In this document: positions 14,096 to 33,931 of the stretch, one piece after another
Layout: every line of letters starts with the position of its first letter
Position numbering within the stretch: the stretch's first letter is position 1
From: an uncultured Draconibacterium sp.
GTDB lineage: Bacteria > Bacteroidota > Bacteroidia > Bacteroidales > Prolixibacteraceae
NCBI RefSeq assembly: GCF_913060805.1
Contig: NZ_CAJXTC010000004.1
Coordinates: forward strand, 62,001-126,000
Direction of reading: 5' to 3'
Length of the DNA: 64,000 bases
Made by a program: the position numbers and the translations under genes
Notes under the pieces: model-generated
What the model was told of the DNA's origin: nothing
The model's database searches: none
What the model saw: only the letters and a program-made list of their open reading frames with translations

Positions 14096-15559
14096 TTATT
14101 CGCGTTGTGCAACGTTGGTTCCCTCAGTGTTGGCTAAATGTTCAACCGTGCGTACGTTCAGTTCCACTTCTTTGTTTATAAACTCGGGAATATTGTACGA
14201 GAAAAGCAGCTCTTCGTAGTATTCCGGATTTTTTTGCGGTAACAAAAAAGCTTTGCTTGCTTGCCCGTTTTCATCGAGATGGGAAATATAAGGGCGCGTA
14301 TACAGGCCATTTATGCGTCGACTACTAAAAACAAACCAGCGTGAGTTGGACGACCACGAATGGTAACTTTCGGTGTCGTCGCTGTTGGCTGCTTCCAATG
14401 GTTGTACATCACCGCTTTCCAAATCCAACAAATAGAGATCTGCTTCTTTGTGCCAGATAGAGAAATTTCCATAATCCACCAGCGTGAACATGATGTACTT
14501 TCCATCGGGTGAAGGGCGCGGAAATGTTATGCTTTTTTCGATAGCTGCTGCATTAAAAAGTGTATCTACTTCGTTGCCAAATGTTCCGGTTGCCGGATCG
14601 AAATCAATGCTGCAGAGGTTGTAGCGCACATCCTGATATTGCATTGGCATTTGTTTGGCTTCGGCAGCACAGAAATATAGTTTTTTCCCATCGGGCGAAA
14701 AAGAAGGGAATGTTTCAAAATGATCTTTGGTCATTATTTTATCGCAGTACAATGTTTCATTTTTATTTACATCGTAAACTATCAGGTCCGATTCGGAATC
14801 GATCACTTCAACACGTTTGTCCTTAGTTTCGTGAAATACCTGCTGAATGTTGTTAACCGAATAGGTGAGGTAATCGCCGCTCGGGTGCCAAAAAGGGTAA
14901 ACAAAGTTGGAAATGGTTTTGGGCGTTTTAGTGTTGAGGATTTTTACATCGCCATCGGTAGCCAGAATAGTACCACCTTTTTGCCCGCGTATGTGCAAAC
15001 TCATATCGTCAGGATCGGTCAACCGGAAAGAATGACAATTTATGCAGCTTCCGGTAAGCAAAGTATTTTCGATAATTGTTTCCTGGTTGTATGAAGCCAG
15101 TTCACGCTGATAGATTCCCATTTTGCTGTACAGTTCGTATCCCGGTGCAATAAGTCGGTAGGCAATTCCGTAATCAATCGGATCGGCACTAACAGATACC
15201 GGGAAAGGTTTATACTCCACCCATTTGTCGTTTTCTTTGGCAAAAACGGTAAAACTTATTTCCGAACCTTTTGACAGCTCAAGCAAATTTGACCAGTTTT
15301 TAGCAGGGATACTAATATGATCTGTGCCTTTGACCGCTATGTAGTTTCCACTTTTGTTTTCAATACGCAGCGCAATTCCATCAACATTACCTTGCATTTT
15401 AAAATTTAAAGGAGCGATGTTATATGGTATCGTAACGTTTTTATAATCAGGGAATATTTCCGGCAGTTCATCTTTTACTGAATCTGAATTTGTATTGGGA
15501 GAACACGAATAAAAGGCGATTGCCAAGCCGGTAAGAAATATATAGATGTACTTTAACAT
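14096..15559 (-). CDS. Heme-c lipoprotein with TolB-like propeller, array copy A1
   Basis: This 487-residue protein starts with a lipoprotein signal (lipobox AFYSC, Cys19). An N-terminal beta-sandwich-like region of about 120 residues (PDYKNVTIPYNIAPLNFK) leads to a conserved RLIAPGYELYSKMGIYQREL segment. A single c-type heme motif CINCH follows at 172-176, then HIRGQKGGT, whose His is a candidate sixth ligand. The rest is a TolB/WD40-type beta-propeller with repeated FSPDGKKLYF and PSPDGKYIMF blades and a closing WSSNSRWFVFSSRR. It is the last gene of the array, 12 nt after copy B1. Heme binding is strongly suggested by CxxCH; the role is unknown. Confidence 0.8.
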   Translation of the reverse strand: MLKYIYIFLTGLAIAFYSCSPNTNSDSVKDELPEIFPDYKNVTIPYNIAPLNFKMQGNVDGIALRIENKSGNYIAVKGTDHISIPAKNWSNLLELSKGSEISFTVFAKENDKWVEYKPFPVSVSADPIDYGIAYRLIAPGYELYSKMGIYQRELASYNQETIIENTLLTGSCINCHSFRLTDPDDMSLHIRGQKGGTILATDGDVKILNTKTPKTISNFVYPFWHPSGDYLTYSVNNIQQVFHETKDKRVEVIDSESDLIVYDVNKNETLYCDKIMTKDHFETFPSFSPDGKKLYFCAAEAKQMPMQYQDVRYNLCSIDFDPATGTFGNEVDTLFNAAAIEKSITFPRPSPDGKYIMFTLVDYGNFSIWHKEADLYLLDLESGDVQPLEAANSDDTESYHSWSSNSRWFVFSSRRINGLYTRPYISHLDENGQASKAFLLPQKNPEYYEELLFSYNIPEFINKEVELNVRTVEHLANTEGTNVAQRE

Positions 15560-15571
15560 ACTCGATTGTTT

Positions 15572-17350
15572 TTAATTTCTAAAATGCAGATAGTACCAGT
15601 AAGTGTCGCCAAAATTTTTCTTCATTATGGCAGCATTTCGTGTGTTGTCATACTGGTTGTTATACTTTTTTAAACGTGTTCGAATTGAATTACTTATCGA
15701 AGACGTAATTTCTTCTTCCGTATGTTCATTGGTTGTTTCCCAAACGTATAACAACGCCTCCTGAAAATGTTTTGGGATAACTTTGTAATTCAGCGAACTT
15801 GACAATGGAAAATACCGCATAAAAAGTTGCAGGTTTTTGTCTAAAAGTGTTGCCGAAACCAGGTATTCAAAAGCGATCATATTTCGGTTGTTATTCATAA
15901 AAAGCAGCCCGATCATATTTAACTTTTCCTGTTCGCTAAACAGAAAATCTTTTTGAATTCGCGCTTTTCTCAGCCAGCCCCATTCAATATGTTGTTCTAC
16001 CCTTTTTTCGTCTTTTATGATTTCCAGCGAATTGCTAGCCCATTTTCTGTAATAAAGTGTTTTTTGCAGTAAATGGAGGTATTTTGCAGCCAGTGCGTAT
16101 TCTCCGTTAATAATATTGGTTTCGGCCAGGCGTTTTATCGATCGCACACTTTTTTGATATTCGGGCAAAGCTTCCATCGTTTCGAAGGCAAAACGTTGCG
16201 CCGTGTTTATAAGTCCGAGGTGATAATACACTTCGCCGGCAGTTGCCGGAATTGTGGCGTTGCTTGTAAAATCAGGAATGAGTCCGCCTATCCCGTTCTG
16301 ATAATATTCAAACATTTTTTCACCCAATTGTCCTGTTTCAGCCAGCGCCAGGTTCAAACAGGCTATAGAAATAGGATTGGTAGGTTCTTTTTTGTCAGCC
16401 ATTGTAATAACACGATCCCACCTCCGCATACGAATTTGAAAATCGTAAGCCATCATTTCTTCTTTCTCGAAATCGGCAGAATTATAGATAAACCCGAATG
16501 TAACAGCACTTAGCAACAAGGTTAGAATGGAAAGAAGAAGCCCGGCTTTTTTGATGGTAAGTATTTTTGAAAGAAACCACAAAGCAAACGGAATAAGAAT
16601 GATTAGTAAAGCTATTACTGGTAATACTATCGGGTAATTTTCCGGGAAACGGAAATAGTTAACACCGATCCAAAACTTTTGCATGGGGTATTGTAAAACA
16701 ACCATTTTTGCAAGGTGAGGTAAAATCAGCGTAATCAGCATCAGGGCAATTGCGTAGAAAAGATCGTTTTTGCCGATCTTACTTTTTCCAGTGAATTTTG
16801 TGAAAAGGATAAACAGGGTAAGTAAAACAAACAGGCCGCCAGCTGACCAGTATAAAATGATGAGCAGAAGTATTCCTGTTATCATTTGGCCGGTACCGCG
16901 TTTGGTTTTTAGATAAATCAGGCTGAATAATGCAAGCAAGATCATTGCGATCAGTCCACCAAGCATGTAGTTTTCATCACAAAGCAGACTCCAATAAAGT
17001 ATTGATGGAAGAAATGTTATCGGCATCCAGTGTTTTGGAATCCCTAATTTTATTGTAGTAGCCAGTATAAGTCGTTGCAACAGTACCAACATTGCAGCCA
17101 GTATTAATGCTCCATTTCTTGAGTAGAAATAGAATTGGGTAAAAAAGTTTCCCAGGTAATCGCTCAATCCTCCCGGATGATCAACAAAATCGAGCAGGTA
17201 ACGTGGTGTAAACAAAAACAGCTGATACTGTTCCTGGTAGTTGAGGTGAAAGGAATAATAAAAGCCAAAAAATATAAATGCGGCAACACCAAACACCAGC
17301 GAAAACACGGTGTCGACACCTATGATTTTGGGAAATAAATTTTGCTTCAT
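15572..17350 (-). CDS. DUF6057-like polytopic membrane protein, array copy B1
   Basis: A 592-residue protein. Residues 15-300 hold about ten membrane helices; the first extracytoplasmic loop carries the conserved YQEQYQLFLF and a later one LYWSLLCDENYML. Residues 310-592 form a soluble helical, TPR-like domain (LNLALAETGQLGEKMFEYY, GEVYYHLGLINTAQRFAFE, KRLAETNIINGEYALAAKYL) ending FGDTYWYYLHF. From memory this is the DUF6057 family of Bacteroidota. The layout recalls GT-C-type membrane transferases, but no catalytic residue is proven. It forms a module with the heme lipoprotein 12 nt downstream. Confidence 0.75.
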   Translation of the reverse strand: MKQNLFPKIIGVDTVFSLVFGVAAFIFFGFYYSFHLNYQEQYQLFLFTPRYLLDFVDHPGGLSDYLGNFFTQFYFYSRNGALILAAMLVLLQRLILATTIKLGIPKHWMPITFLPSILYWSLLCDENYMLGGLIAMILLALFSLIYLKTKRGTGQMITGILLLIILYWSAGGLFVLLTLFILFTKFTGKSKIGKNDLFYAIALMLITLILPHLAKMVVLQYPMQKFWIGVNYFRFPENYPIVLPVIALLIILIPFALWFLSKILTIKKAGLLLSILTLLLSAVTFGFIYNSADFEKEEMMAYDFQIRMRRWDRVITMADKKEPTNPISIACLNLALAETGQLGEKMFEYYQNGIGGLIPDFTSNATIPATAGEVYYHLGLINTAQRFAFETMEALPEYQKSVRSIKRLAETNIINGEYALAAKYLHLLQKTLYYRKWASNSLEIIKDEKRVEQHIEWGWLRKARIQKDFLFSEQEKLNMIGLLFMNNNRNMIAFEYLVSATLLDKNLQLFMRYFPLSSSLNYKVIPKHFQEALLYVWETTNEHTEEEITSSISNSIRTRLKKYNNQYDNTRNAAIMKKNFGDTYWYYLHFRN

Positions 17351-17381
17351 TCGCTAAAGATACTTTTTTAGCAAGTATGGC

Positions 17382-18833
17382 TCAATGAACCTGTTCAATT
17401 TTTGTGTCGTTATAAATTTTCTCAATATCCATCGCATCAAACGGAACCTGACCTGTTGACAGCTCGGGAATATTGAATGATTTAAGCATAAAATCGTACT
17501 TCTCCGGGTCTTTTTGTGGAAGCACAAAAGGTTTGTGTGCTTTTCCGTTTTCATCGACATACGAAAAGTAAGGTTTGCCATACAACCCATTATCACGTTT
17601 ACTGGCAAAAACAAACCAGCGGCTGTTCGACGACCAACTGTGATAGGTGTCGGAGTTTGGACCGTTCACATCTTTCAAAATATCGATTTCGCCGGTTTGC
17701 AGGTTTAGCATTTGCAAGTCGGCCTCGCGATGCCAGATAGGAAAAGTACCATAATTGGCTACGGTGAAAAGCAGGTGTTTTCCGTCGGGTGATGTTTTTA
17801 AATGACATGCCGATCCATGCTGAGTTTCGGAATTCCAAACCGTATCAACTTCTGTTCCCAGTGTTCCGTTTTCCGGATCGAAATCGATTCGATGAATGCT
17901 GTAACGAAGCGACTTGATGCTGTCGGGTAGCGGTTTATAAGGAGCTGAGCAATAATAAATTGATTTTCCGTCGGCAGAAAATACAGGGAAAGTTTCAAAA
18001 GTTGCAGTGTCGCTTAAAAAGGGGTGAGTGTTCACTTTGTCGTTGTCGAAATCAATCACGATAAGATCCGAAGCACTGTCGTAAACTTCCAGCCGTTTGC
18101 TTTGGCTCGAATGAAATTCCGGAATTACAATATTAGATGAAAATACACCAAAACGTCCCGACGGGTGCAAGTTTCCGTAGGTTGCATTCGCAATCATTTT
18201 ATTGTTGCGGGTGTTTATTTTGCGCAATTCTCCGTCGCGATTCAATATGGTACCACCATTGGGGCCGCGCATGTGGAAGAACGATAATTCCGGGTTGTTA
18301 TTCCCGTAAATATGGCAGTTCATGCAACTGTTTTTGGTGAGGTTGTTGTCGGCCAAAACGCGTTCGTCAAACGTTTCAATGCTGCGTTCAACCAACTGAA
18401 TTTTATTCCACACTTCGTAACCCGGCTCAATTAACCGGTAACTCACGAATCCATCTATTTCATCCGGTTTTACTGTCCATGAAAACGGTTTGTACTGTGT
18501 CCACTCCTCATTTGTCAGGCAAGTTACGGTAACCGAAATTGTTTGTTCTCCGGCCGCAAGCAATTCCTTCCATTTCTTTATTGGTATTTGTATTTTCTGT
18601 TCTCCGGAAACAGTTAAACTCCCTTCTTTTCCTTCGATTGTAACAACTGTGTTTTTCGCTGAATCAGTCAGCATAAAATTCAAAGGAGCGATGTTTTCAG
18701 GAATCGTGACATTAATATAATCCGGGTAAATGGCCGGGAATGTATCGACTGTTTTTGCATTTTGCGGCGACTGTTTACACGAAATCAAAAACAGCAAAAC
18801 CAAAACTCCAAGTATCATCAAGCGCTTCTTCAT
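17382..18833 (-). CDS. Heme-c lipoprotein with TolB-like propeller, array copy A2
   Basis: I start at the Met of MKKRLMILGVLVLLFLISCK, which gives a proper lipoprotein signal (Cys19) and an ATGA overlap with the stop of copy B2; the earlier in-frame start adds 14 unsuitable residues. The 483-residue protein keeps the family layout: PDYINVTIPENIAPLNF, heme motif CMNCH at 170-174, FHMRGPNGGT after it and a propeller with ending WSSNSRWFVFASKR. It is the most divergent A copy: the YSKMGIYQR segment reads WNKIQLVER and the residues after the heme motif are IYGNNN instead of a SF-type pair. Confidence 0.78.
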   Translation of the reverse strand: MKKRLMILGVLVLLFLISCKQSPQNAKTVDTFPAIYPDYINVTIPENIAPLNFMLTDSAKNTVVTIEGKEGSLTVSGEQKIQIPIKKWKELLAAGEQTISVTVTCLTNEEWTQYKPFSWTVKPDEIDGFVSYRLIEPGYEVWNKIQLVERSIETFDERVLADNNLTKNSCMNCHIYGNNNPELSFFHMRGPNGGTILNRDGELRKINTRNNKMIANATYGNLHPSGRFGVFSSNIVIPEFHSSQSKRLEVYDSASDLIVIDFDNDKVNTHPFLSDTATFETFPVFSADGKSIYYCSAPYKPLPDSIKSLRYSIHRIDFDPENGTLGTEVDTVWNSETQHGSACHLKTSPDGKHLLFTVANYGTFPIWHREADLQMLNLQTGEIDILKDVNGPNSDTYHSWSSNSRWFVFASKRDNGLYGKPYFSYVDENGKAHKPFVLPQKDPEKYDFMLKSFNIPELSTGQVPFDAMDIEKIYNDTKIEQVH

Positions 18834-20434
18834 CCTTCTCCTACTTTTATAGTTGCAAAATGATAATAAAACCAATACGAACTTTTAAATTCTTCTCCCA
18901 ACGATTTGGAATCTCTTTTCTTGTACAACTCAGTGTACTTCCAAAAATCGTCCACCAACGATTTGTCCAGTTTGTAGGCAAGATATTCTTTCGGGCCGGC
19001 ATTATTTCTTGCCAACGAAATCAGCAGCGCCTGCGTGTAAAGTTCGCAGGGAGCGGTGCCCAAAGGTTTGGCATAAGCATTATAATCGGCAACAAAACCG
19101 TCGATATTTTTCGAAAGCAGCTGAAAACAAAGTAAATAATCGCGGGCTGCTTTGTTGGTGGGATTATGATCCAGCAGATTTCTTAGCGACGCTACCACAT
19201 CGTTATTGGCGCGAAGCGTATCTACCGAAGAACAGTTAAGTCTTTTGCGAATGATCCACTTTTTAAATGCTTCCGATTGGTTTTCCGGTCTTCGGTTTTG
19301 TGCCCACTTTCGGTAGCATAAAGTGTGCTCCAACATGGTCAGGTATTTATCGGCTGCTTTTTCTTCTCCGGCAATTAGATTGATTTCGGCCATGCGTTTC
19401 ACCATTCGACTGCTTCGCTGGTTATACGAAAAAATTTGTCCCAGCACTGTAGAGTGTTCTGACATGGTTAAATCGCCCACCCAAAACCAGGCTTGGTTGC
19501 TAAATAGTATCGACAAAAAAGAAGACCGATAGCTAAGTTTAAGGAAAAGTCCATATTCTCCGGGCTGATAATAATCCAGAAGATTCTCGGGTAATTGATT
19601 TAAATGACTGCTGGCCAAATTGTAATAATACGTTGCATTTTGGTCGTTTTGATCATATTTCCGTGCCGTTTTTAGCACCTCGTCCCAATTGCCCCGATCA
19701 CTTTCAATACTCATTGCAAATATCTCCTCTTCGTGCAAATCGGGCGTATTCCAAAACAAATTCATCGGATATTGAAACGCATCGCGAAGTGGCACCAAAT
19801 AATGCGGACGCAAAAGAAAAGGCAAAATCAGTACCGCAAAATATACTACAGAAATGATCTTAAAATGATTTTTGAACTCGCCGGTCAGAAGAAGTAAAAG
19901 TGCTACCCAGGCTCCGTAACCAAATATCCAGTAGCCGATTAGCAGAAGTAATAAATTCACAAAAACCCTGGGCGTTTGTTTCAGTTTTAGCGATAGGCCA
20001 ATTCCGGCAATCGCGAAGCCGCCAATTAATGCCACTGTTGCCGACAATGGATATACCACCCCGGTATTTCGAAGCGCTTCCCAGCTTGCAATCAGCAGGA
20101 TAATTGTAAAGGCCGGCAATCCTGAGAATAGCTTTTTTAGCGACCAGAATCCTGTTGCGATCAATACAAGAAGCGTTAATGTAATTGTTACTGCTCCTCC
20201 ACCGATGTAATAGAAAAACTGGGTAAGGAAATCACCCAAAAGGGAGGCCAGCCAGGCCGGTTTGTTGAAGTACGAAAACAAGTAGCCCGGTTCGAATAAA
20301 AACAGCTGCATTTGCTCGCGGTGAAACAAATGATAAGGATAGAAAAACTGAAAAAACAGGAAACAAATAATTCCCCAGAGCAGCGCCACTGCTATTCCAA
20401 TTTTTCGTGATTTTATCATTCCTCTGTTCACCAT
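18830..20434 (-). CDS. DUF6057-like membrane protein, array copy B2 (short, divergent)
   Basis: At 534 residues this is about 60 shorter than the other B copies and the least similar. It keeps FHREQMQLFLFEPGYLF in the first loop, LGDFLTQFFYY and the C-terminal helical repeats (MAEINLIAGEEKAADKYLTML), but the LLCDENYML motif is not recognisable and the ending is SSYWFYYHF instead of GDTYWYYLHF. Its start overlaps the A3 stop by one base (TAATG) and its stop overlaps the A2 start by four (ATGA), so it is tightly coupled to both neighbours. An alternative start is Met6. It pairs with A2, the most divergent A copy, which suggests that partners evolve together. Confidence 0.72.
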   Translation of the reverse strand: MVNRGMIKSRKIGIAVALLWGIICFLFFQFFYPYHLFHREQMQLFLFEPGYLFSYFNKPAWLASLLGDFLTQFFYYIGGGAVTITLTLLVLIATGFWSLKKLFSGLPAFTIILLIASWEALRNTGVVYPLSATVALIGGFAIAGIGLSLKLKQTPRVFVNLLLLLIGYWIFGYGAWVALLLLLTGEFKNHFKIISVVYFAVLILPFLLRPHYLVPLRDAFQYPMNLFWNTPDLHEEEIFAMSIESDRGNWDEVLKTARKYDQNDQNATYYYNLASSHLNQLPENLLDYYQPGEYGLFLKLSYRSSFLSILFSNQAWFWVGDLTMSEHSTVLGQIFSYNQRSSRMVKRMAEINLIAGEEKAADKYLTMLEHTLCYRKWAQNRRPENQSEAFKKWIIRKRLNCSSVDTLRANNDVVASLRNLLDHNPTNKAARDYLLCFQLLSKNIDGFVADYNAYAKPLGTAPCELYTQALLISLARNNAGPKEYLAYKLDKSLVDDFWKYTELYKKRDSKSLGEEFKSSYWFYYHFATIKVGEG

Positions 20435-21906
20435 TAATTGCTTTTAAAAGAAAACGATGGTTTCTCTTCCTGCATCAACTGTTCTTCAATTTCAGGGATG
20501 TTCAGCTTTACGGGGGCGTTGCTAAATTCAGGAATATTGTACGAGAATAATAACTCTTTGTAAAAGTTAACCGGATCTTTCTGTGGCAATAAAAATGCCT
20601 TGTCAGCCTCACCGTTTTCGTTAATATGCGCAATGTACGGGCGGGTGTATAATCCATCACCACGCCGGCTGCTAAACACTGTCCAGCGAGAATTGCTGCT
20701 CCATGAATGGTAACTTTCGGTATCGTTGCTGTTTATTCCATCCAGCGGTTTTGCCTCTCCGGTAGCCAGGTCTAGCATCCACAAATCCGCTTCTTTGTGC
20801 CAAATCGAAAATTGCCCAAAATCTATAAGTGTAAACATGATAAAACGACCGTCGTAACTTGGTCGCGGAAATGTAACCGATTTATTCATTCCTTCAGCAT
20901 AAAACAGCGTGTCGATGTGGTTGCCAAACGAACCGGTTGCCGGATCAAAATCAATCGCACACAAATTATATTGAATGTCGCGAAACTCGGCAGGCATATT
21001 TTTCGGTCCGGCACAAGTAAAGTACAAGCGTTTTCCATCGGGTGAAAATGACGGGAAAGTCTCAAAATTCTCCGTTTTCAGCAATGGCGAAGTAATGATT
21101 TCGTTCGTTTTTACGTTATAAACCGTAACATCCGATTTAAAATCGAACACTTCAATACGCTCCGATTCCCTTGTGTGAAAGGTTTGCCGGGTCATGTTAT
21201 TCGAGTAGGCAATGTAGTCGCCCGAAGGATGCCAGTATGGATAAACGCTAGGCGAAAGTGTACTGTCGGTTTTGGTTGAATAAGCCGTAATTTCTTTGTC
21301 GGGCGTTGCTACAAAGGTGGCTCCGTGATCTCCTCTCACATGAAAAGTAAGGTACGAGGGGTCGGTTTGTTTGAACGAATGACAGTTGACACAACTACCC
21401 GACACCAAGGTGTTTTCAAGGATTGCATCCTGTTTAAAATCGGCTAAAGTACGCTGGTAAATTCCCATTTTACTGTACACTTCATAGCCGGGCGCAATAA
21501 GCCGGTAACAAATACTTTCGTCAATCGGATCCGCGCTTACATGAATGAAAAACGGCAGGTACGATAACCACTGATTTTCCGTTTTTACACTTACCTCAAC
21601 TTTTATACTATCGCCAATATTTTCGCTCAATAAATCCTTCCATTTATTAATAGGAATTTCGGGTGTGCTGCTGCTTTGCAAATGAATTGTAGTGTTCCCT
21701 TTTCCTGAGAAAACGAAGTCTGTAAGTTCAAAATTATCGGCCATCGAGAAATTCAAAGGAGCAATTACCGATGGAACTGTAACTCCAATATAATCAGGTT
21801 GAATATCAGGCAGTGATGAAACTTGCTGCGAGTTGCTCACCTCTTCTTTCGACGAACAGGAAAACAGCACCAGCAAAAGGAATATATAACTTAAATAGAG
21901 TCTCAT
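20434..21906 (-). CDS. Heme-c lipoprotein with TolB-like propeller, array copy A3
   Basis: The chosen start gives MRLYLSYIFLLLVLFSC, a lipoprotein signal with Cys17; the longer in-frame version would add 18 residues with no signal character. The 490-residue protein is close to A1: ADPIDESICYRLIAPGYEVY, heme motif CVNCH at 172-176, FHVRGDHGAT, blades FSPDGKRLYF and PSYDGRFIMF, and WSSNSRWTVFSSRR. The residues after the lipid Cys (SSKEE) are partly like a surface-export signal. It lies 19 nt after B3. Confidence 0.8.
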   Translation of the reverse strand: MRLYLSYIFLLLVLFSCSSKEEVSNSQQVSSLPDIQPDYIGVTVPSVIAPLNFSMADNFELTDFVFSGKGNTTIHLQSSSTPEIPINKWKDLLSENIGDSIKVEVSVKTENQWLSYLPFFIHVSADPIDESICYRLIAPGYEVYSKMGIYQRTLADFKQDAILENTLVSGSCVNCHSFKQTDPSYLTFHVRGDHGATFVATPDKEITAYSTKTDSTLSPSVYPYWHPSGDYIAYSNNMTRQTFHTRESERIEVFDFKSDVTVYNVKTNEIITSPLLKTENFETFPSFSPDGKRLYFTCAGPKNMPAEFRDIQYNLCAIDFDPATGSFGNHIDTLFYAEGMNKSVTFPRPSYDGRFIMFTLIDFGQFSIWHKEADLWMLDLATGEAKPLDGINSNDTESYHSWSSNSRWTVFSSRRGDGLYTRPYIAHINENGEADKAFLLPQKDPVNFYKELLFSYNIPEFSNAPVKLNIPEIEEQLMQEEKPSFSFKSN

Positions 21907-21925
21907 AATCAAAGTAATTTTGCAT

Positions 21926-23731
21926 TTATTCAAAATGTAAATAGTACCAAAATGTATCACCGTAACGCGATTTTAGCAACTGCTTGGCAGCTCCGCGTTG
22001 TTTGGTGTAAATTGTTGCGTAATCAACAACAGCCCTGCGAATAACCGGGTTTATCGGCCACGGCATTCCATTAAAAGTTCCGTTTTTTTGGGTCCACATA
22101 AAAACCAGCGCCTCCTGAAAATGCCTTGGGATTTCGGTATAATTCAGGTTGCGACCCACACTAAAATAATTTACAAAATGCTGCAAATCCTTTCGCAAAA
22201 GACAGTAGGCCATTAAATATTCGAAAGCCATTTTATTGTGGTAATCGTGTTCGTACAACAAACCAAGCATCATGTCTTTTTCCTGCGGGCTGTATACAAA
22301 CTCATCGGTTGTGCGAATTTGTCTCAAATAAACCCAGTCTTTATGTTGGTTGAATTTCGTACTGTCGTCGATGCAACTCAGTGCTTCGTTGGCCCAGTCT
22401 TTATAAAACTGCGTGTGTTGCAGCAGGTAAAGGTATTTTTTAGCCACGGCATACTGATGGTTCAGCAAATTGGTTTCGGCCAGACGTTGCATAATTCGTA
22501 CACTTTTTTGCTTGTCGGAAATCGATTCCATCGCTTCAAAAGCATGTGCCTGCCCAATATTTATCAACCCTAAATGGTAATAGATTTCAGACGAAACCAG
22601 CGCCCCAACATAGTGTTTTGCAAACTCCGGGATCAGTCCGTTGGCATCGTGCTGGTAATAATGAAACATGCGCGTTCCCAACTGACCGGTTTCGCCCAAA
22701 GCCAGGTTTAAATAAGCAACCGTGTATGGCGTGTGCGGCGTGTTTTCATCGGCCATTTTAATGATCTCTTTCCAGTTGTTGTGGCGCACGTAATAATCGT
22801 AAGCCATGTATTCTTCGGTTTCAAGATCGTTAAATTTGTTGATGGAAGAATATCCGATGAACACAACCAGTAAGAATGAAACTACTGCGAATATTTTTGT
22901 ATGCACACTCTTTTTTAGAGTTGGAATGAAAACATAAAGTGCAATTATAAGTGCAAAACTCAATCCGCCCCAAACCTGTAGAAAAGGCGCTTCAACGGGT
23001 AAGCGGAAAAGACCGATACCGGTTAACATTTCAGTGATGGGATATTGAACCAAAAAGTTGAAGCTAATTAAAACTGACGCGATAGAAAGCAGAATTCCCG
23101 CAGCTAACCAAATAATAAGCTTTGTAATTGAAAAAGCCTTATCGTGAACTATGCGTTCCGAAAGCAGGATCACTAAAAACGGCAGCCAGAACATTCCTCC
23201 CGACAACCAAAACAGCACTGGAAGAGAAACCAGTGCACTGCCCAATCGAATTGTTTTACGCGGAATCAATAAAATGATCCAGGTGGTGAAAACGATAAAA
23301 AGTAGTGAAACGAGGCCTGTCAGCATAAAGTTTTCGTCGCAAAGAAAAGCCCAGTACAATACCGACGGCAAAAAGCTCAGCGGATAAAGAAAGTGTTTGA
23401 CTTTTTTGTCGGGCGATGCCAAAACCAAAATTCGCCAGCTTAGGCGTTGCAAGAGAACTAGCAATAACGCAATAATTAGAGCGCCTGCCCAGCGGTAATA
23501 ATAAAACTGGGTAAGAAAGCGTGCAATATAATCGGCAAGTCCGGTTGGTCTTGAAATTAAATCAACAAAATAAGACTTCAAATACAGGAAAAATTGGTAT
23601 TGTTCCTGGTGACTCAGTAAGTTGGGCCGAATCTGCAACCAAAAGAAAAACACGCCAATTCCGAGTAGAAATGTTAAGCCCCATTCCAGCAAACGGACGT
23701 TTAGTATTTTCGTTTTCGATGGTTCTTTCAT
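21926..23731 (-). CDS. DUF6057-like membrane protein, array copy B3
   Basis: A 601-residue full-length copy. The conserved first loop reads LSHQEQYQFFLYLKSYF, the second motif LYWAFLCDENFMLTG, and about ten membrane helices precede the soluble helical half (LNLALGETGQLGTRMFHYY, SEIYYHLGLINIGQAHAFE, QRLAETNLLNHQYAVAKKYL), which ends YGDTFWYYLHFE. It starts in a 4-nt overlap with the DUF4369 gene and is followed by its A3 partner. Confidence 0.75.
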   Translation of the reverse strand: MKEPSKTKILNVRLLEWGLTFLLGIGVFFFWLQIRPNLLSHQEQYQFFLYLKSYFVDLISRPTGLADYIARFLTQFYYYRWAGALIIALLLVLLQRLSWRILVLASPDKKVKHFLYPLSFLPSVLYWAFLCDENFMLTGLVSLLFIVFTTWIILLIPRKTIRLGSALVSLPVLFWLSGGMFWLPFLVILLSERIVHDKAFSITKLIIWLAAGILLSIASVLISFNFLVQYPITEMLTGIGLFRLPVEAPFLQVWGGLSFALIIALYVFIPTLKKSVHTKIFAVVSFLLVVFIGYSSINKFNDLETEEYMAYDYYVRHNNWKEIIKMADENTPHTPYTVAYLNLALGETGQLGTRMFHYYQHDANGLIPEFAKHYVGALVSSEIYYHLGLINIGQAHAFEAMESISDKQKSVRIMQRLAETNLLNHQYAVAKKYLYLLQHTQFYKDWANEALSCIDDSTKFNQHKDWVYLRQIRTTDEFVYSPQEKDMMLGLLYEHDYHNKMAFEYLMAYCLLRKDLQHFVNYFSVGRNLNYTEIPRHFQEALVFMWTQKNGTFNGMPWPINPVIRRAVVDYATIYTKQRGAAKQLLKSRYGDTFWYYLHFE

Positions 23732-24390
23732 TTCTCGTTTGTTTTAAACAGCGAATCTATTTCTGCTTTTTTGTCGTCGGGAACCGCAACTTTAACCTGG
23801 TTGTACAAAAAGTTGCCCAGCGTATTGTCGCCCATTTCTTTTAAAATCCCATAATTAAAAGCTTTCGATTCGTTTTTGAACTTTTCAATAAGCACCTCCG
23901 ATTCCAATGCGCGGGTTGAATCTTTTTGTGCCAATTCTCGTGCACTTAGAAGTTTGGTTAAGGTTTCTCCACGATACGTTTTCCACTTTTGCAAAGCATC
24001 GTTCTGAGCGGTTCCTCCGCCATTACTAACCGAATCCAATGTCACATCAATTTGGCCGGGTTCGGTAACAACAAGCAATTCCTGAACTTGCATCCGCTGC
24101 TTCATAGGCATCCTGATTACCGCAACACGTTCAATATCTCCATGGAAAACAAAACTACTGTTTTCAATTAAAACCGAGTCGACATCGTTTACAGTGTGTG
24201 GTTCTGTCGGTACAAGATATATCCATTCGCCGTTAAACTGCGAATCCGGTAATTCTCCTTTTATTTCAAAAGCAGGTTGCTTGCACGACGTTGCAAAAAC
24301 GAAAAACAGAGCACCAAGTAGAACCCAATTCTTTTTAATAAATGTAAATATGCTATCTGATTTTTTCACCAATTTCATCTTGTAAAACAT
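23728..24390 (-). CDS. DUF4369-type lipoprotein without thioredoxin domain
   Basis: A 220-residue protein with a hydrophobic segment ending in a lipobox (FVFATSC, Cys36), followed by a DUF4369-like domain: FEIKGELPDSQFNGEWIYLVP, then VLIENSSFVFHGDIERVAVIRM and LLVVTEPGQIDVTLDS. In Bacteroidota this domain usually precedes an AhpC/TlpA thioredoxin domain, but here only a helical tail follows (KLLSARELAQKDSTRALESE ... LGNFLYNQV), so no CxxC redox site exists. Start is uncertain between Met1 and Met5. It is the only gene in the array outside the A/B pattern, set between A4 and B3 and overlapping B3 by 4 nt. Confidence 0.65.
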   Translation of the reverse strand: MFYKMKLVKKSDSIFTFIKKNWVLLGALFFVFATSCKQPAFEIKGELPDSQFNGEWIYLVPTEPHTVNDVDSVLIENSSFVFHGDIERVAVIRMPMKQRMQVQELLVVTEPGQIDVTLDSVSNGGGTAQNDALQKWKTYRGETLTKLLSARELAQKDSTRALESEVLIEKFKNESKAFNYGILKEMGDNTLGNFLYNQVKVAVPDDKKAEIDSLFKTNEK

Positions 24391-24417
24391 CCTTAAATCT
24401 TCTCCAATATATTTAAA

Positions 24418-25887
24418 TTATTTTCTTTCGAAAAGCATTTCCTCACGATCGGGCTGCATTAACTCTTTTTCAACTTTTCGGGCGTTAAACGGTACTTTTC
24501 CGGTAACAAACTCAACCGTGTTATAGGCATAAAACAAATCCTGATAATATTCGTCGGGATTTTGCTGAGGCAGCATAAACGGTTTTCCAACATTGCCATT
24601 TTCATCGATGTGCGAAAAATAGGGGCGGGCAAATAAATCACCGTCGCGCCGGCTTTCAAAAACAAACCAACGCGAGTTTGAACTCCAGTTGTGGTATCCG
24701 TCAGAATACGCACTGTTAACTTCATTCAGCGGCCTTGTTTCGCCACTATTTAAATCGAGCAGCCACAAATCGGCATCGGTATGGTACATCGGGAAACTAC
24801 CGTAATTTATTTTGTTATACATCAAATATTTACCGTCGTACGAAGCCCGTGGAAGTGTGGCGCTTTTCCGGTCGATGGCGAGATTTACGACCGTATCCAC
24901 TTTGTTGCCGAAAATACCGGTTTCCGGGTCGAAGGAAATACTGCAAATATTATAGAACGTTTCTTTTAATTCGCGGGGCAGATCTTTATGAGCTGCCGAG
25001 GCAAAATACAGTGTTTTTCCATCGGCAGAAAAGGCCGGGAAAGTTTCGAATGAACTGCCTGAAATCAAATCGGAGGTGAGCAGTGTGTTGTTTTCAATGT
25101 CGTAAACCAAAAGATCAGAAGCTTCGTCGAAAGTCTCGATTAAATCGGTGGCAGTGGTGTGAAAAGTCTGCCTGACTTTGTTGGTTGAATAGGCAATGTA
25201 TTTTCCCGAAGGATGCCAGAACGGATACATGCACGACGCCAAAATCGAATCGTTTGCTGATTCCAGAATCTTTGTTTCTCCGTTGGTTTTTATAATCGTA
25301 GCTCCTTGTGCGCCGCGAATATGTATGCTTTGCTGTTGCGGATTTCCGCGATTAAATGTGTGGCAGTTTACACAGCTTTTAGTAACCTGTGTATTCTCAA
25401 ATAATGGTCGTTGGTTGTAGCCCGACAACTCACGTTCGTAAATTCCCATTTTGCTGTAGGTTTCGTAACCCGGAGAGATGAGGCGATACACGATTCCATA
25501 GTCAATCGAATCGGGGCTCACATACATCGAAAACGGTTTGTACTGAAACCACTGATCGGCTTTTTTTACACTTACCTCGAATTGGATTGAATCGCTACAA
25601 TTTTTTGCCAGCAAATCCTGCCAGGCGGACTGCGGAATATCGATGTTGTTTTTGTATTCTTCTTGAAAAGCTACTTCGTTGCCTGCTAGGATTTTCAGTT
25701 CCAAAGAACTGTAATCCGAACTGTCGACGGTGAAGTTTAGCGGAGCAATATTCATCGGAATTGTAACGCCAATGTAATCCGGGTAAATCTCAGGATAACT
25801 ATCGATTTTTTCGGCATGTTGAATGTCTTCTTTGCACGAAAAGAGCAACAGGGAGAATATGGCTATGTAGATTAATCGTTTCATCAT
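24418..25887 (-). CDS. Heme-c lipoprotein with TolB-like propeller, array copy A4
   Basis: A 489-residue protein with lipobox LLFSC (Cys18) followed by KEDIQ, which resembles the K-acidic signal that sends Bacteroidota lipoproteins to the cell surface. Family landmarks are PDYIGVTIPMNIAPLNF, VYRLISPGYETYSKMGIYER, heme motif CVNCH at 172-176, then IHIRGAQGAT and a propeller with FSADGKTLYF, ASYDGKYLMY and WSSNSRWFVFESRR. Met1 or Met2 may be the start; the 4-nt overlap with the stop of B4 favours Met1. Confidence 0.8.
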   Translation of the reverse strand: MMKRLIYIAIFSLLLFSCKEDIQHAEKIDSYPEIYPDYIGVTIPMNIAPLNFTVDSSDYSSLELKILAGNEVAFQEEYKNNIDIPQSAWQDLLAKNCSDSIQFEVSVKKADQWFQYKPFSMYVSPDSIDYGIVYRLISPGYETYSKMGIYERELSGYNQRPLFENTQVTKSCVNCHTFNRGNPQQQSIHIRGAQGATIIKTNGETKILESANDSILASCMYPFWHPSGKYIAYSTNKVRQTFHTTATDLIETFDEASDLLVYDIENNTLLTSDLISGSSFETFPAFSADGKTLYFASAAHKDLPRELKETFYNICSISFDPETGIFGNKVDTVVNLAIDRKSATLPRASYDGKYLMYNKINYGSFPMYHTDADLWLLDLNSGETRPLNEVNSAYSDGYHNWSSNSRWFVFESRRDGDLFARPYFSHIDENGNVGKPFMLPQQNPDEYYQDLFYAYNTVEFVTGKVPFNARKVEKELMQPDREEMLFERK

Positions 25888-27671
25888 TTGTTATCTTTTT
25901 CACACAACAAATAGTACCAGTAGGTATCGCCAAATTTATCGGCCAACAGTTTTTTGTCGGTAACCGAATTGTATTCTGCAATAAACGCTTTCATATTGTT
26001 CGAAATCCGGGTGTCGATCTCCCATGGAATTTCGTTAAGCGGTTTGTTCTGCGACGACCACAACACTGTCAAGGCTTCCTGAAAATGAACAGGAATTGAA
26101 AAATAGGAAATTCCATCGCCAAGACTAAAGAACTTTATAAATCCGGTGATGTCGCGCTCAAGCAGTTTGTATGCCATTAAATATTCGAAAGCAACCCGGT
26201 TTGTGGAATTCTTTTTTAACAGCAATGCCAGAATGATATCCTGTTCGTCGGCATTAAAAAAGAAATCTTCGTCGATGCGGTTTTTTCGCAAGCTTCCAAA
26301 TTCAGGATGTTTGTTTACGGATTCATCGTTAAATAAAAGTGTTTCCGCTCGTTTTGCCCACTTTCGGTAAAACAGGGTTTCTTCTAAAACGTTGAGATAT
26401 TTTCGGGCCGTTTTGTAGTTGCCGTTAATAATGCTGACTTCTGCAATTCGTTTATAACAGCGCGCACTTTTTTGGTAATCGGGAATCGATTCCATGGCTT
26501 CAACTGCCAGGCGGTGCGCTGTGTTAACCATTCCCAGGTGATAATAAACTTCGCCGGCAAACAGGGGAGTCATCATATCTCGTTGGTATTTTGGCAGCAG
26601 CGATTCCAGTTTGTCGTACTGCGGAAACTGAAACATGTGATTGCCCAACTGTCCGGTTTTTGCCAAAGCAAGATTCACGCATGTTGATGCCAGCGATGAT
26701 ACCGGAGGATTTTTCTCCGCTTTCTGAATAATTGCATTCCATTGATGCATCCGGGCCATATAGTTGTAGGCAAAAGCTTCTTCTTTGGCGGTATCAACCT
26801 TTGAAATTATTAAACCGGTTCCGCCTCCAAATACCAGCAGGAATAAAACGATAGATGCCCAGATCATTTGTTCTTTTTTAATCACCCGGTGAATGAGAAT
26901 GGTTAAAAAGGAAATTGAAACGAATAGGAGCAAGGCAACATTTTTGATGAATGGCATGAAGTCGGGGTAGCGGTAATAATTGATGCCATTTAAAACCCTC
27001 GATAACGGATAGCTGACCAGAAGTTGGGATGCGAGAAGAACAGCGTAAACATACAGGACAAAAACCGAAAAAACAGCGATCCATTTAGGAATTGAGAATT
27101 TATACTGGTTGAGTAAAATTTCGTGCAAAAGAAGTAAGGCAACAAAAATGATTGACGCGCTGCCTGCAATCCAGAATAAAACAGGAAATAGTAGTACTCC
27201 GCAAATGGAGCGTGTTGTGTTTTTCGGAATCTGCATGCAAGTTAATGACGCGGATAGTGCGAATAACAGTGCTATCGGGAGACTTAACATCGCGTTTTCG
27301 TCGCATAAAAATGCCATTATAGCAATTGACGGCACAAACGAAACGATTGTGTTAACAAGTGAGTTGGAGTGTGTAAATAGTCGAATGATTCTCAGGAACA
27401 GGATTTGGATGAGGGTGAGCACAGAAGCAATAATTCCTGCTCCCAACCATGGAAACAAAAAGAACTGAGTTAAGAAGCGGGCAATGTAATCGGCGCCTCC
27501 TCCGGGAATTGAAAGTAGTTCGATAAAATATTGCCCCGAAAACAGGAACAATTGATATTGTTCGTGAAATGCCACATGATAAGGATATACAAGCCCAAAG
27601 AATAAAACAACAATTCCCCAAAAGGCAAGTCCGGGGAAAAATTTGAAAATTCGTTTTGGCTTTGTCATCAT
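25884..27671 (-). CDS. DUF6057-like membrane protein, array copy B4 (first of the array)
   Basis: A 595-residue copy and the first gene of the array in transcription order. The first loop has AFHEQYQLFLFSGQYF, the second motif is FLCDENAMLSL, followed by more membrane helices and a helical soluble half (VNLALAKTGQLGNHMFQF, GEVYYHLGMVNTAHRLAVE, KRIAEVSIINGNYKTARKYL) ending FGDTYWYYLLCEKD. It overlaps A4 by 4 nt. Upstream, 168 nt with a perfect hairpin separate it from the SusCD-linked lipoprotein gene. Confidence 0.75.
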   Translation of the reverse strand: MMTKPKRIFKFFPGLAFWGIVVLFFGLVYPYHVAFHEQYQLFLFSGQYFIELLSIPGGGADYIARFLTQFFLFPWLGAGIIASVLTLIQILFLRIIRLFTHSNSLVNTIVSFVPSIAIMAFLCDENAMLSLPIALLFALSASLTCMQIPKNTTRSICGVLLFPVLFWIAGSASIIFVALLLLHEILLNQYKFSIPKWIAVFSVFVLYVYAVLLASQLLVSYPLSRVLNGINYYRYPDFMPFIKNVALLLFVSISFLTILIHRVIKKEQMIWASIVLFLLVFGGGTGLIISKVDTAKEEAFAYNYMARMHQWNAIIQKAEKNPPVSSLASTCVNLALAKTGQLGNHMFQFPQYDKLESLLPKYQRDMMTPLFAGEVYYHLGMVNTAHRLAVEAMESIPDYQKSARCYKRIAEVSIINGNYKTARKYLNVLEETLFYRKWAKRAETLLFNDESVNKHPEFGSLRKNRIDEDFFFNADEQDIILALLLKKNSTNRVAFEYLMAYKLLERDITGFIKFFSLGDGISYFSIPVHFQEALTVLWSSQNKPLNEIPWEIDTRISNNMKAFIAEYNSVTDKKLLADKFGDTYWYYLLCEKDNK

Positions 27672-27780
27672 CGCAAATATTGTTTTTTATGCGAGCATTT
27701 GCAGCTACTTCCGATAAACTTAAAAAATGCAGCCCGGCAAAAATACAAAAAGGAAATTATGATAGGCTACTGGTAGGAAG

Positions 27781-27811
27781 ACGAAAGGGATTCAATTTGA
27801 ATCCCTTTCGT
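27781..27811. promoter_or_regulatory. Perfect 14-bp hairpin between the susCD part and the array
   Basis: ACGAAAGGGATTCA and TGAATCCCTTTCGT form a perfect stem with a 3-nt loop. On the minus strand the 3' side is not followed by T-residues, so it is not a classic intrinsic terminator. It may stabilise the 3' end of the susCD-lipoprotein mRNA or tune read-through into the module array. Confidence 0.6.
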
Positions 27812-27839
27812 TATAAGTGTTATGAACTTATTAGAATCA

Positions 27840-28682
27840 TTATTCAGGGCTTGTGCCTTCAGCTCTGAAACACCAGAACCATGCAGCACCCCATGAACCG
27901 GCTCCTGGCTCAGGAGCAGACAACCATAATTCGTCGTCGTTAAGTTTCAGGATGCTGTATTCATAATATGGCTCATCACCATTGTTATGGTTAACGCCTA
28001 ACAGTACGTTAGTTCCTGAAGTATAAAAAGCACCGATGTCCCAACCCGGGCTAACCATTTGCGACATGTCGAAGTCGAAAGATCCCTGGTTACCATTACT
28101 TTTTGTCAGTGTTAAACCGTTAAGGCTGAATGTCATCGAAGCGTCTTTACCGTCGCCTTCACTGTTCATTCCTGTAGCTTGTTCGTCAAGTCCGTCCATG
28201 CCTACAAGCCACCATCCCGGGCCAATATTTCCCATGTATCCACCGTTTCCGAATGGTGCAGGTGCATATTCGTCCCAAACCCAAACTTTTTCACCGTCGC
28301 CACAGAAATAACCATATTCTGCTTCAACCGGATAGTTATCTGAGATTTTATCAATCTGTACAGTAAATTCTTTCGAGATCTCGGTTCCGTCAGGATTTAA
28401 TCCCAGCAAAGTAACCGTTTGTTCGCCGGTGGCAAACATTTTAAGTTCGGCATATGTACTTGCTTTGCTCAAAATACCATTGGTCCATTTGGTAGTAATT
28501 GGGCTCGAGCATTCGCAAATTACATAGTTTACGTTTTGGCCATCTTCCTGAACAACAGTTACTGTTGCTTCAATTTCATCAGCACTAATTGCGCCCCCCA
28601 TCTCGTAACGATCTTCGATGGGATCGCAAGCTGTAAAGAAAATGGCAGCTATAAAAGTTAGTCCTAAAAATATCTTTTTCAT
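27840..28682 (-). CDS. Surface-type lipoprotein of the SusCD locus (SusE-position)
   Basis: A 280-residue lipoprotein (lipobox FFTAC, Cys19) whose Cys is followed by DPIED, an acidic stretch typical of surface-exposed Bacteroidota lipoproteins. An N-terminal Ig/PKD-like part (VNYVICECSSPITTKW, GEQTVTLLGLNPDGTEIS) precedes a beta-rich C-terminal domain with many aromatics (GEKVWVWDEYAPAPFGNGGY, GPGWWLVGMDG, WGAAWFWCFRAEG) that looks like a ligand-binding jelly roll. It lies 22 nt after susD and is the likely extra binding protein of the uptake complex. The ligand cannot be named. Confidence 0.75.
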   Translation of the reverse strand: MKKIFLGLTFIAAIFFTACDPIEDRYEMGGAISADEIEATVTVVQEDGQNVNYVICECSSPITTKWTNGILSKASTYAELKMFATGEQTVTLLGLNPDGTEISKEFTVQIDKISDNYPVEAEYGYFCGDGEKVWVWDEYAPAPFGNGGYMGNIGPGWWLVGMDGLDEQATGMNSEGDGKDASMTFSLNGLTLTKSNGNQGSFDFDMSQMVSPGWDIGAFYTSGTNVLLGVNHNNGDEPYYEYSILKLNDDELWLSAPEPGAGSWGAAWFWCFRAEGTSPE

Positions 28683-28704: not shown

Positions 28705-30483
28705 TTACTTCCACATCGAAGTATCATATGTTTTATTATCTCCATCTCCCCAGCCGGCATTCTGCTCAAGATATTCAGAAAGCTCGATTTGTGCCTGAGG
28801 AATAGGCCAGAATCCCTGTGTTGCCTGGTAACGTCCAACAAGTCCGTCGCCCAGGTCGGGCATGTTAGTCCATACAGTTTCGTGGTTTACGCGTACGCCA
28901 ACTTGTTTTGCCAGTGCTTGTTCGGCAATGTGCCAGCGGCGAATATCAGCCCAGCGACGACCTTCGCCAACTAACTCCCAACGGCGTTCGTTTTGTAAGG
29001 CTTCTTCAGAGTAACCAACAGGTTCTAACCCGGCGCGTTCGCGAACCTGGTTCATGTATGTTGCATCTTTGGTTAACTCCGATTGCATAAGCAGGATATC
29101 GGCAAATCGCATCAGAATTAAATCCTGGTAGTGAGCTCCCTGCATGTGGTTTCCATTGTGGCTTGAAGTATAACCTTCAAGGAATGTCCAGAAAATGTTG
29201 TTGGTATCAAAAGTTACTGCGTTTCCTTCAGCATCTTTTTTAGTAGTTACAGGCTGCATTTTTTTCAATGCGTAACCTGAATCCTCATCACAGTCAGAAA
29301 CGAAAACGTAACCTTCCAGTTCGTTTTGGCAGTCAACAATAGAAGCTGTTTTACGAATGTCGGTAACACCGTTAGCTGATTCCCATTGTGTCCAATCGTT
29401 CCAAAGGTTGGTTGAAACAGCAGCCTGTCCCCAGCCTTGTCCGAATGGGAATGTATTTTCGTAACCATTGTCGCCGGTACGCAAGCCCTGGTATAAAATG
29501 TACTGGTTTGAATAACCCATTTGGTGAGGATCGCTCCATCCTGCATAGTTCATATACTGAACAGAAAACATCTCTTCCTGGTTACCGTTTCCGGCCCATG
29601 CCAAAGGATTTCCATCAACACCTGTTTTTACAACACCGCTATCAGAAGTAAACGAATAATCGTCAACAGTAAGCGAGTTTGTGTATGGCCATAAATTACG
29701 GAAATCGCCAAGCAGACTGTGACCTGAGTTGGCAATACAATCGTTAAGGAAGCCAATTACATCGTCTTTTGTTACGCTTCCGCTTTCAACAGTTGGTAAC
29801 GCATCTTTGCTGTAGAATCCGGTGTAGAAAAGGAAGTTACGAGCCATCATACCTTCAGCATCCCATTTTGTAGCGTGACCTGATTCGTAAGCGGTATAAG
29901 GCTGGTCTTTCATTAAGTCGATCGCCAATAATAAGTCGCTTGCAATTTGCGCATAAATTTCGTCAGCAGTAGCAGCAGGCATATCGGTAACCGATGTTGA
30001 AACAACCAGTGGCACCTCGCCAAACATTTCGGCTAATTGCTGATAGAAGAAAGCACGAAGGAAATAAGCTTCACCCAGTGCCTGATTACGGTTTTCTTCG
30101 CTACTCCATTCGCAGTTGTCAATGGTTTCAATAACTGTATTAGCGCGGAAAACGCCCATATACATTATCTGCCAGAAGTTATCGAACATCGTACTCTTGT
30201 TTTGCAACAAGTGTCCAATTGCAGTAATTTCAACGTCACCTGTACCACCTGCACCAAAACGGTCGTCAGAAGCCAGTTCCGAAACCATATAATAACTTTC
30301 GGTAGGGTAACAAGTCATCTTGTTTAATATAGAGTACACCGCAGTAACTGCCATTTGTACGTCGCTTTCAGTTTTAGGAAAGTTCGACGTGTTGGACTTT
30401 GTGTAGTTCTCGGTATCCAACATGTCTTCACATCCAACAAAGAAGACTGCAAGAGCTATAACTAAATAAAATATCTTTTTCAT
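28705..30483 (-). CDS. SusD/RagB family outer-membrane lipoprotein
   Basis: The 592-residue protein has a lipoprotein signal (AVFFVGC, Cys18, followed by EDMLDTE) and the SusD layout: TPR-like helices in the first half (ALGEAYFLRAFFYQQLAEMFGEVPLV) and the closing part with YQDLILMRFADILLMQSE, MNQVRERAGLEPVGYSEE and NERRWELVGEGRRWADIRRW. SusD proteins form a lid on their SusC partner and catch the nutrient. It lies 12 nt after susC. Substrate class (glycan or peptide) is not readable; no glycoside hydrolase or peptidase is encoded nearby. Confidence 0.95.
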   Translation of the reverse strand: MKKIFYLVIALAVFFVGCEDMLDTENYTKSNTSNFPKTESDVQMAVTAVYSILNKMTCYPTESYYMVSELASDDRFGAGGTGDVEITAIGHLLQNKSTMFDNFWQIMYMGVFRANTVIETIDNCEWSSEENRNQALGEAYFLRAFFYQQLAEMFGEVPLVVSTSVTDMPAATADEIYAQIASDLLLAIDLMKDQPYTAYESGHATKWDAEGMMARNFLFYTGFYSKDALPTVESGSVTKDDVIGFLNDCIANSGHSLLGDFRNLWPYTNSLTVDDYSFTSDSGVVKTGVDGNPLAWAGNGNQEEMFSVQYMNYAGWSDPHQMGYSNQYILYQGLRTGDNGYENTFPFGQGWGQAAVSTNLWNDWTQWESANGVTDIRKTASIVDCQNELEGYVFVSDCDEDSGYALKKMQPVTTKKDAEGNAVTFDTNNIFWTFLEGYTSSHNGNHMQGAHYQDLILMRFADILLMQSELTKDATYMNQVRERAGLEPVGYSEEALQNERRWELVGEGRRWADIRRWHIAEQALAKQVGVRVNHETVWTNMPDLGDGLVGRYQATQGFWPIPQAQIELSEYLEQNAGWGDGDNKTYDTSMWK

Positions 30484-33756: not shown

Positions 33757-33841
33757 AGATTAATTATTTGATTATTTATTGAGTAATATTGAGTTTTGCT
33801 TGTGTTAGCGCTGAAAAATGAAGTATGGCAGGGATGGAATA

Positions 33842-33854
33842 TGCCTGTCAGGCA
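33842..33854. promoter_or_regulatory. 13-bp palindrome in the susC leader
   Basis: TGCCTG-T-CAGGCA is a perfect 6+1+6 inverted repeat about 86 nt before susC, notably G+C-rich in an A+T-rich region. Confidence 0.35.
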
Positions 33855-33912
33855 CCAAAGATTTTTCGAATCCTGATCTGTTCATAATTTGATAGTTTTA
33901 GTTTAATTGCCT

Positions 33913-33931
33913 TATTGTATATGATACAATA
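33913..33931. promoter_or_regulatory. 19-bp palindrome (operator-like) upstream of susC
   Basis: TATTGTAT-ATG-ATACAATA is a perfect 8+3+8 inverted repeat about 157 nt before the susC start. A+T-rich palindromes of this size are typical operators for dimeric regulators; no regulator gene is adjacent apart from the sensor kinase. Confidence 0.5.

Follow-up and report, generated by a model that had tools for sequence, protein, structure and literature searches.

A conserved pairing of DUF6057 membrane proteins with CxNCH propeller lipoproteins, linked to a chorismatase-type protein, in Bacteroidota

Introduction

Glycosyltransferases of the GT-C fold carry an acidic residue in their first outer loop, and the TMTC-type proteins combine such a fold with tetratricopeptide repeats (TPR). 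Here, we describe a locus in a 64,000-nucleotide stretch of DNA from an uncultured Draconibacterium sp. (NZ_CAJXTC010000004.1, positions 62,001 to 126,000; the whole stretch is referred to below as the window), in which genes for DUF6057 membrane proteins (B) alternate with genes for propeller lipoproteins (A). According to structure models, B may have a GT-C-like membrane half like Pmt4, Pmt1-Pmt2 and the TMTC-type proteins. It carries the acidic residue of the first outer loop, and it probably also shares the outer-side TPR domain of the TMTC-type proteins. It differs from all of these in that a sequence search of the PDB with B gave no match, in that its partner is a lipoprotein with a CxNCH motif, and in that its acidic set is only partial in two of the module types described below (beta and gamma).

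The closest described relatives of the other components also differ from what is found here. TolB of the Tol-Pal system resembles A in predicted fold, yet the best score of A against TIGR02800 was 34.9 bits, for a cut-off of 343.15, and A has a lipobox, CxNCH, and B as a partner. In hydrazine synthase alpha, the active-site heme is reported to be housed in a separate middle domain that follows the propeller (PMC12758564). A gave a match to hydrazine synthase alpha that at first suggested membership in this family, but the middle domain (PF18582) was not matched in any of 80 A proteins at E ≤ 0.01, and the idea was dropped for that reason. The Hyg5/FkbO chorismatases, one of which reportedly serves depsipeptide biosynthesis, are similar to the third protein discussed below (R), which has an N domain resembling theirs, a RidA-like C domain, and a matching Cys and Glu; the genomic setting of R, among B-A modules and gene groups with CxxCH and ResB proteins, is different. 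Finally, our locus resembles polysaccharide-utilization loci in its upstream genes, which encode SusC, SusD, and a lipoprotein of surface type, but no glycoside hydrolase or other glycan-degrading enzyme was detected among the window genes that were domain-scanned, and the modules also occur without SusCD nearby. A literature search found no paper on DUF6057, none joining PD40, CXXCH and tetratricopeptide, and none on B or A, as judged mostly from titles and the beginnings of abstracts. While the individual folds are known, the combination of B, A, and R and its linkage appear to be new.

Results

Four B-A modules lie in tandem on the minus strand of the window, at exactly 14096-27671, where the original prediction had placed them from the letters alone; both gene order and Pfam matches confirmed this arrangement. 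In the direction of transcription, the order is SusC, SusD, a lipoprotein (L), and then B1-A1-X-B2-A2-B3-A3-B4-A4, where X, a DUF4369 lipoprotein between A1 and B2, is a ninth gene that had not been listed. A2 and A3 probably start inside their longest open reading frames, at ATG 21906 and ATG 18833, judging from the sequence. Using these revised starts, neighboring genes overlap by 4 bp at B1/A1, X/B2, and B3/A3 and by 1 bp at A2/B3, and the remaining junctions within the array are gaps of 12-31 bp. The later copies of B are 30-41% identical to the first one, and those of A 42-53%. The genome of the window encodes six B and six full A proteins in six adjacent pairs; the two additional pairs are on other contigs, and one of them is reversed (A-B). 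Among named loci, the closest is L017 of Draconibacterium aestuarii, whose B scores 56% against the query B.

To assess distribution, 395 genomes of the phylum and 247 genomes of the order were sampled; kinship between genomes was ignored in the statistics, and at most three candidates per genome were scored in the phylum searches for B and A. B exceeded the family cut-off in 6/395 phylum genomes and in 27/247 order genomes. A strong A (E < 1e-100) was found in five of the 395 phylum genomes, all five among the six with B; in the sixth (G351), B looks broken. Eighty loci were picked by B alone and then read for B, A, and the other genes of the window, and 166 A and 166 B passed a profile-coverage threshold of 75%; redundancy removal at 70% reduced these to 97 A and 119 B. 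Structure alignments comprised 80 A and 100 B, leaving out 17 A and 19 B. A was the next gene after B, on the same strand and within 400 bp, for 152 of the 159 B with at least 1.3 kb downstream, and B preceded A in 148 of the 154 cases with room upstream, which bears out the expectation that the B-then-A order recurs in other genomes. Five of the seven exceptions have an intervening gene (R in L035, L041, and L048; other long open reading frames in L078 and L092), one locus lacks A (L042), and one has A on the opposite strand (L057).

The divergence of the two proteins is also coupled. The distance matrices of B and A correlate with r = 0.90 (155 pairs), compared with 0.25 on average and 0.44 at most when partners were swapped within each locus (1000 trials); this is the mirrored divergence that had been proposed as a sign of fixed partners. 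When B and A were clustered separately, with class cut-offs chosen by the analyst, four main classes mapped one to one with no crossing among them: alpha (99 pairs), beta (37), gamma (9), and delta (3). Seven pairs fell in small classes, and B class 4 (L014, L097) shares its A class with alpha. The strong divergence of the modules that was seen at first is one of recurring types, and B1/A1 to B4/A4 are alpha, alpha, beta, and alpha, respectively. Taken together, these data support well the conclusion that B and A are fixed partners. Moreover, 47 of the 54 loci with at least two modules hold at least one alpha and at least one module of another type, a hint that the types may complement each other within a single machine. 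The original prediction proposed that each module might handle a different ligand; the mixed loci may mean that the modules are complementary rather than independent. The gamma modules (L050, L052, L054, L061, L065, L086, L088, L089, and L096) are mostly from ruminant Prevotellaceae. All nine have His or Gln in place of E40 in B and Pro in place of H400 in A, and they may have lost activity or taken on a new role as partners of the neighboring alpha module.

The four B proteins of the window (all on the minus strand: B1, alpha, 25884-27671, E 2.5e-171; B2, alpha, 21926-23731, E 1.1e-167; B3, beta, 18830-20434, E 8e-126; B4, alpha, 15572-17350, E 1.6e-174) match PF19529 (DUF6057) over their full length, with 422-582 bits for a cut-off of 29.8 and E values of 8e-126 to 2e-174. 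The family name given in the original prediction was therefore right. The membrane half had been left there as a domain of unknown function; a predicted GT-C glycosyltransferase-like fold, not visible at that stage, adds to this description. The AlphaFold2 model of B4 has a predicted local distance difference test score (pLDDT) of 95 and a predicted template modeling score (pTM) of 0.92, and VIA structure comparison suggested a GT-C-like membrane half. The matches of B listed by Foldseek comprised TPR proteins and further repeat proteins; the GT-C likeness was seen by VIA only. These models suggest that B consists of a GT-C-fold membrane half and a TPR half, as detailed for B4. E40, the acidic residue of the first outer loop, is present in 96 of the 100 aligned B, and the acidic set is incomplete in the beta and gamma types. 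In B3, the membrane region is shorter by about 50 residues, and the acidic pair of the second outer loop is missing. B4 also gave a weak match to Wzy_C (E 0.033).

Relatives of A in three other genomes of the phylum suggest how the two proteins might meet. Two are in G160 and one each in G196 and G314; their alignment with A spans the N-terminal domain, the CxNCH motif, and the propeller, all four carry CANCH or CGNCH, and all end in TPR repeats, which were found by domain scan in two of them and by alignment in the other two. One of the G160 relatives adjoins R, whereas the relatives in G196 and G314 are on a different contig from R. The genome of the window has such a relative as well, at the start of contig C49 (L157:1-1305), where a truncated propeller end is followed by TPRs. 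SusC- and SusD-like genes lie about 2.8 kb beyond it. Since propeller and TPR are joined in one chain in these proteins and are split over two chains in the B-A pair, the comparison points to the TPR half of B as the likely docking site of A.

Each A protein of the window has PD40 propeller repeats, a lipobox-like Cys, and a single CxxCH, always of the form CxNCH. On the minus strand, these are A1 (alpha, 24418-25887, PF07676 E 6e-14) with CVNCH at 25360-25374, A2 (alpha, 20434-21960 with the probable start 21906, PF07676 E 7e-9) with CVNCH at 21379-21393, A3 (beta, 17382-18875 with the probable start 18833, PF07676 E 4e-12) with CMNCH at 18312-18326, and A4 (alpha, 14096-15559) with CINCH at 15032-15046, the motifs being placed by translation. 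A sequence search of the PDB with A gave only weak propeller matches, mostly TolB, and the model suggests a TolB-like propeller. Exactly one CxxCH is present in 164/166 A, and CxNCH in 163/166 (94/97 of the non-redundant set). A motif count of 80/80 refers to the structure alignment only, which left out the copies of L033 and L036 that have no motif. These copies (L033:8646-9965 and L036:8619-9920) lack the entire CxNCH stretch, keep the propeller, and lie beside an intact alpha module; they are natural test cases for the role of CxNCH. In the model of A, which was built without heme, the motif adopts a strand conformation. Arg residues 135, 191, and 415 of A are conserved.

The heme-based redox function envisaged by the original prediction remains plausible. 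ResB matches are present in the genome of the window and, in the order sample, in 26 of the 27 genomes with modules compared with 145 of the 220 others (p 6e-4, counted by eye); the genome of the one exception is 61% complete. The conserved motif, this enrichment, and the neighborhoods of R described below favor a c heme, not strongly, and we regard its attachment to A at CxNCH as rather probable on these sequence-level grounds.

A third component, R, had not been in view, and the two-part description of the system was incomplete in this respect. It is the one dominant family among unassigned genes no more than two genes away from A or B (25/87 sources, 24/80 loci). R consists of an FkbO_Hyg5-like N domain and a RidA-like C domain; of six R proteins scanned with PF21168, two scored above 27 bits and one further match was below. 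R aligns to 5ag3, the Hyg5 structure, with an E value of 2e-25. Near the C-terminus, as in Hyg5, a Cys and a Glu that match 5ag3 are kept in 24/24 aligned R; of the 25 R loci, all but L023 and L038 entered this alignment.

Full-length R is found in 23 of the 27 order genomes with B and in 14 of the 220 without (Fisher p 6e-19), as counted by eye and excluding the broken or partial R of G230 and G416. At E ≤ 1e-30, nine of the 395 phylum genomes encode R: five are those with both B and A, three (G160, G196, and G314) have the next-best A matches, and G230 has the broken R. Two genomes outside the class of the window have contiguous triads, B-A-R in L184 and R-B-A in L185. At least one B-A-R unit also occurs in a record of Bacteroides fragilis (L037). 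The genome of the window gave one R match in a protein search, on contig C49, not adjoining any module. Based on these data, R is likely a functional partner of the B-A core.

R is also located within 10 kb of a ResB match in at least eight genomes of the order sample, with CxxCH proteins around it. These stretches were picked by that 10-kb proximity, and the proteins of three of them (L167, L165, and L170) were domain-scanned. In L167, the neighbors are a di-heme oxidoreductase, an imelysin, and a protein that joins ResB and CcsA; L165 has a porin; and L170 has a protein with the hydrazine synthase alpha middle domain and a propeller/di-heme protein. Proteins of about 1330 residues with two CxxCH occur near R and ResB (L170:7273-11268 and L169:6502-10494); the former combines the hydrazine synthase alpha middle domain with NPCBM and an FGE-sulfatase domain. 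By type of gene group, the imelysin/di-heme oxidoreductase/porin/CcsBA group that holds R resembles BT2473-2482 of Bacteroides thetaiotaomicron, a locus with CcsA, a porin, a thiol oxidoreductase, and an M75 peptidase that is reported to be induced 63- to 324-fold when iron is low (PMC10434189).

In surface lipoproteins of Bacteroidota, the residues that directly follow the lipidated Cys are negatively charged. A lipobox was found in 152/166 A, 45/62 SusD, 43/48 L, and 35/43 X relatives. In these, the mean charge after the Cys was -2.29 for SusD (87% at -2 or below), -2.0 for L (74%), -0.06 for A (1%), and +0.23 for X (0%). SusD and the L relatives therefore look surface-exposed, and a periplasm-facing position is most likely for both A and X. 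Because A lacks the surface-export charge carried by SusD, a surface partnership with SusCD is unlikely, and a surface location of A was rejected on this test. In the window, the genes concerned are all on the minus strand: the SusC-type TonB-dependent transporter at 30496-33756 (TIGR04056 E 1.9e-275; PF07715), the SusD-type surface lipoprotein at 28705-30483 (PF14322, PF07980), L at 27840-28682, for which no Pfam match was above cut-off, and X at 23728-24390 (PF14289 E 5e-11).

SusD was encoded within 6.5 kb 5' of the first B, on the same strand, in 42 of the 55 loci with at least 5.5 kb of upstream sequence; within the same limits, an L relative was found in 37 and SusC, which can lie further out, in 25. 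SusD was missing upstream in the other 13 of these 55 loci, and neither SusC nor SusD was present in the 17-18 kb read around L184 and L185. SusCD thus looks like a frequent but dispensable companion rather than part of the core. The proposal of a SusCD-linked envelope system holds as to frequent linkage; the loci without SusD or SusCD speak against SusCD as a constant element.

Transcription signals were also inspected. A hairpin with a 14-bp stem is located between L and B1 on the minus strand (27781-27811; minimum free energy -21.4 kcal/mol for the 66 nt 27765-27830, z -6.45). Judged by its sequence, it could be a terminator or attenuator of the susCD transcript, and for this reason a single transcript across the locus is not assured. 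No match to the Bacteroides-type promoter pattern was found within the window, and sigma-70-like sites there were close to chance (39 vs 32.4). A perfect inverted repeat, TATTGTAT-N3-ATACAATA, lies 5' of susC at 33913-33931. It is the sole copy in the genome, allowing up to one mismatch, and was not found in the 175 loci compared; no regulon was therefore inferred. A histidine-kinase-like gene (34098-35279; HATPase_c, HisKA), a candidate regulator, lies directly 5' of susC, and a candidate short leader open reading frame of 26 codons was spotted by eye between the two (33805-33885, minus strand). Beyond the 3' end of the module array, domain scans of the next genes gave a YceD-like and a KAS III-like protein and a bactofilin.

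Discussion

The B-A pair is a real and conserved envelope system, undescribed as far as we searched, with B and A as its core. Pairing, co-divergence, model folds, the charge signal, and the linkage to R were computed directly. The pairing is well supported and the folds fairly so; the chemistry is not. With somewhat less than even confidence, we propose that the pair is a periplasmic, probably heme-c-linked two-protein module that works with R and modifies a lipid-linked or chorismate-derived molecule. B would be an inner-membrane protein whose first half has the fold of GT-C enzymes, which take sugars from polyprenyl-phosphate carriers and transfer them at the outer face of the membrane, and whose second half would be a periplasmic TPR arm docking its cognate A. 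A would be a periplasm-facing lipoprotein with a TolB-type propeller and probably one c-type heme at CxNCH. R, presumably cytosolic, would probably supply an aromatic (hydroxybenzoate-type) compound, and the modification, made in the periplasm, would most likely be redox-linked. The modules of Bacteroidales are mostly located behind SusC-SusD and would have been multiplied into complementary alpha and beta types. We infer the docking, the heme attachment, the glycosyl transfer, the reaction of R in this host, and the substrate.

A bolder version, which we consider doubtful, is that B, A, and R form a new periplasmic system, an aromatic redox branch dedicated to the envelope of Bacteroidota. 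The chorismate-derived compound made by R would be a lipid-linked carrier or cofactor, or part of one, handled by B and reduced or oxidized by A; the branch would also serve the iron-starvation c-cytochrome operons, and alpha and beta would form one hetero-assembly.

Alternatively, B could be a TMTC-like protein or a lipid glycosyltransferase and A its acceptor-binding or targeting subunit, with CxNCH being structural and no redox chemistry involved. The modeled GT-C plus TPR architecture, the strict B-A partnership, the strand that CxNCH forms in the model of A, and the two A copies without the motif would all fit such an enzyme. However, it is the full CxNCH that is conserved and not CxxC alone, ResB is enriched in the module genomes, and R is located among CxxCH proteins, so that we regard this explanation as improbable.

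Slightly less credit goes to the possibility that CxNCH binds a non-heme metal, as in propeller metalloenzymes, or forms a disulfide, the module being a metalloenzyme anchored by B. The motif and the propeller would accommodate this, but no candidate His is kept in all types (gamma has Pro for H400, and 16/37 beta have Ser for H225), the conserved Arg residues 135, 191, and 415 of A would rather suit heme propionates, and the links to ResB and R also argue against it.

We likewise consider it quite unlikely that the system serves iron acquisition, with SusCD importing a ferric chelate, R making a hydroxybenzoate-type chelator or reductant, and A reducing the iron in the periplasm. The absence of glycoside hydrolases among the scanned window genes is compatible with it, as is the occurrence of R in a gene group resembling BT2473-2482, which is reported to be induced in low iron (PMC10434189). 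Yet this model leaves the GT-C fold unexplained, iron regulation of B-A is unsupported, and SusCD is dispensable (13/55 loci have no SusD upstream); R as a siderophore maker is kept as a rival only. That B-A is a chance-duplicated accessory of ordinary polysaccharide-utilization loci with no dedicated shared function is very improbable, as SusD upstream in 42/55 loci and a further module copy in the genome of the window (L014) among genes that look typical of such loci by their sequence starts are set against the lack of glycoside hydrolases in the scanned window genes, the B-A-R stretches without SusCD read from another class, the class pairing, and the mixture of alpha and non-alpha modules in 47/54 multi-module loci.

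If A is a heme protein as proposed in our preferred reading, a redox-linked module of B and A working with R, it would represent an unusual case of c heme carried by a propeller of the TolB fold that is partnered with a glycosyltransferase-like membrane protein. R, which is also found in a gene group like the iron-starvation-induced one of B. thetaiotaomicron, gains a possible shared role. Through its cognate propeller and the chorismatase-type enzyme, DUF6057, so far an orphan family with records from Bacteroidota of the gut, the rumen, and the environment, becomes part of a testable three-part system.

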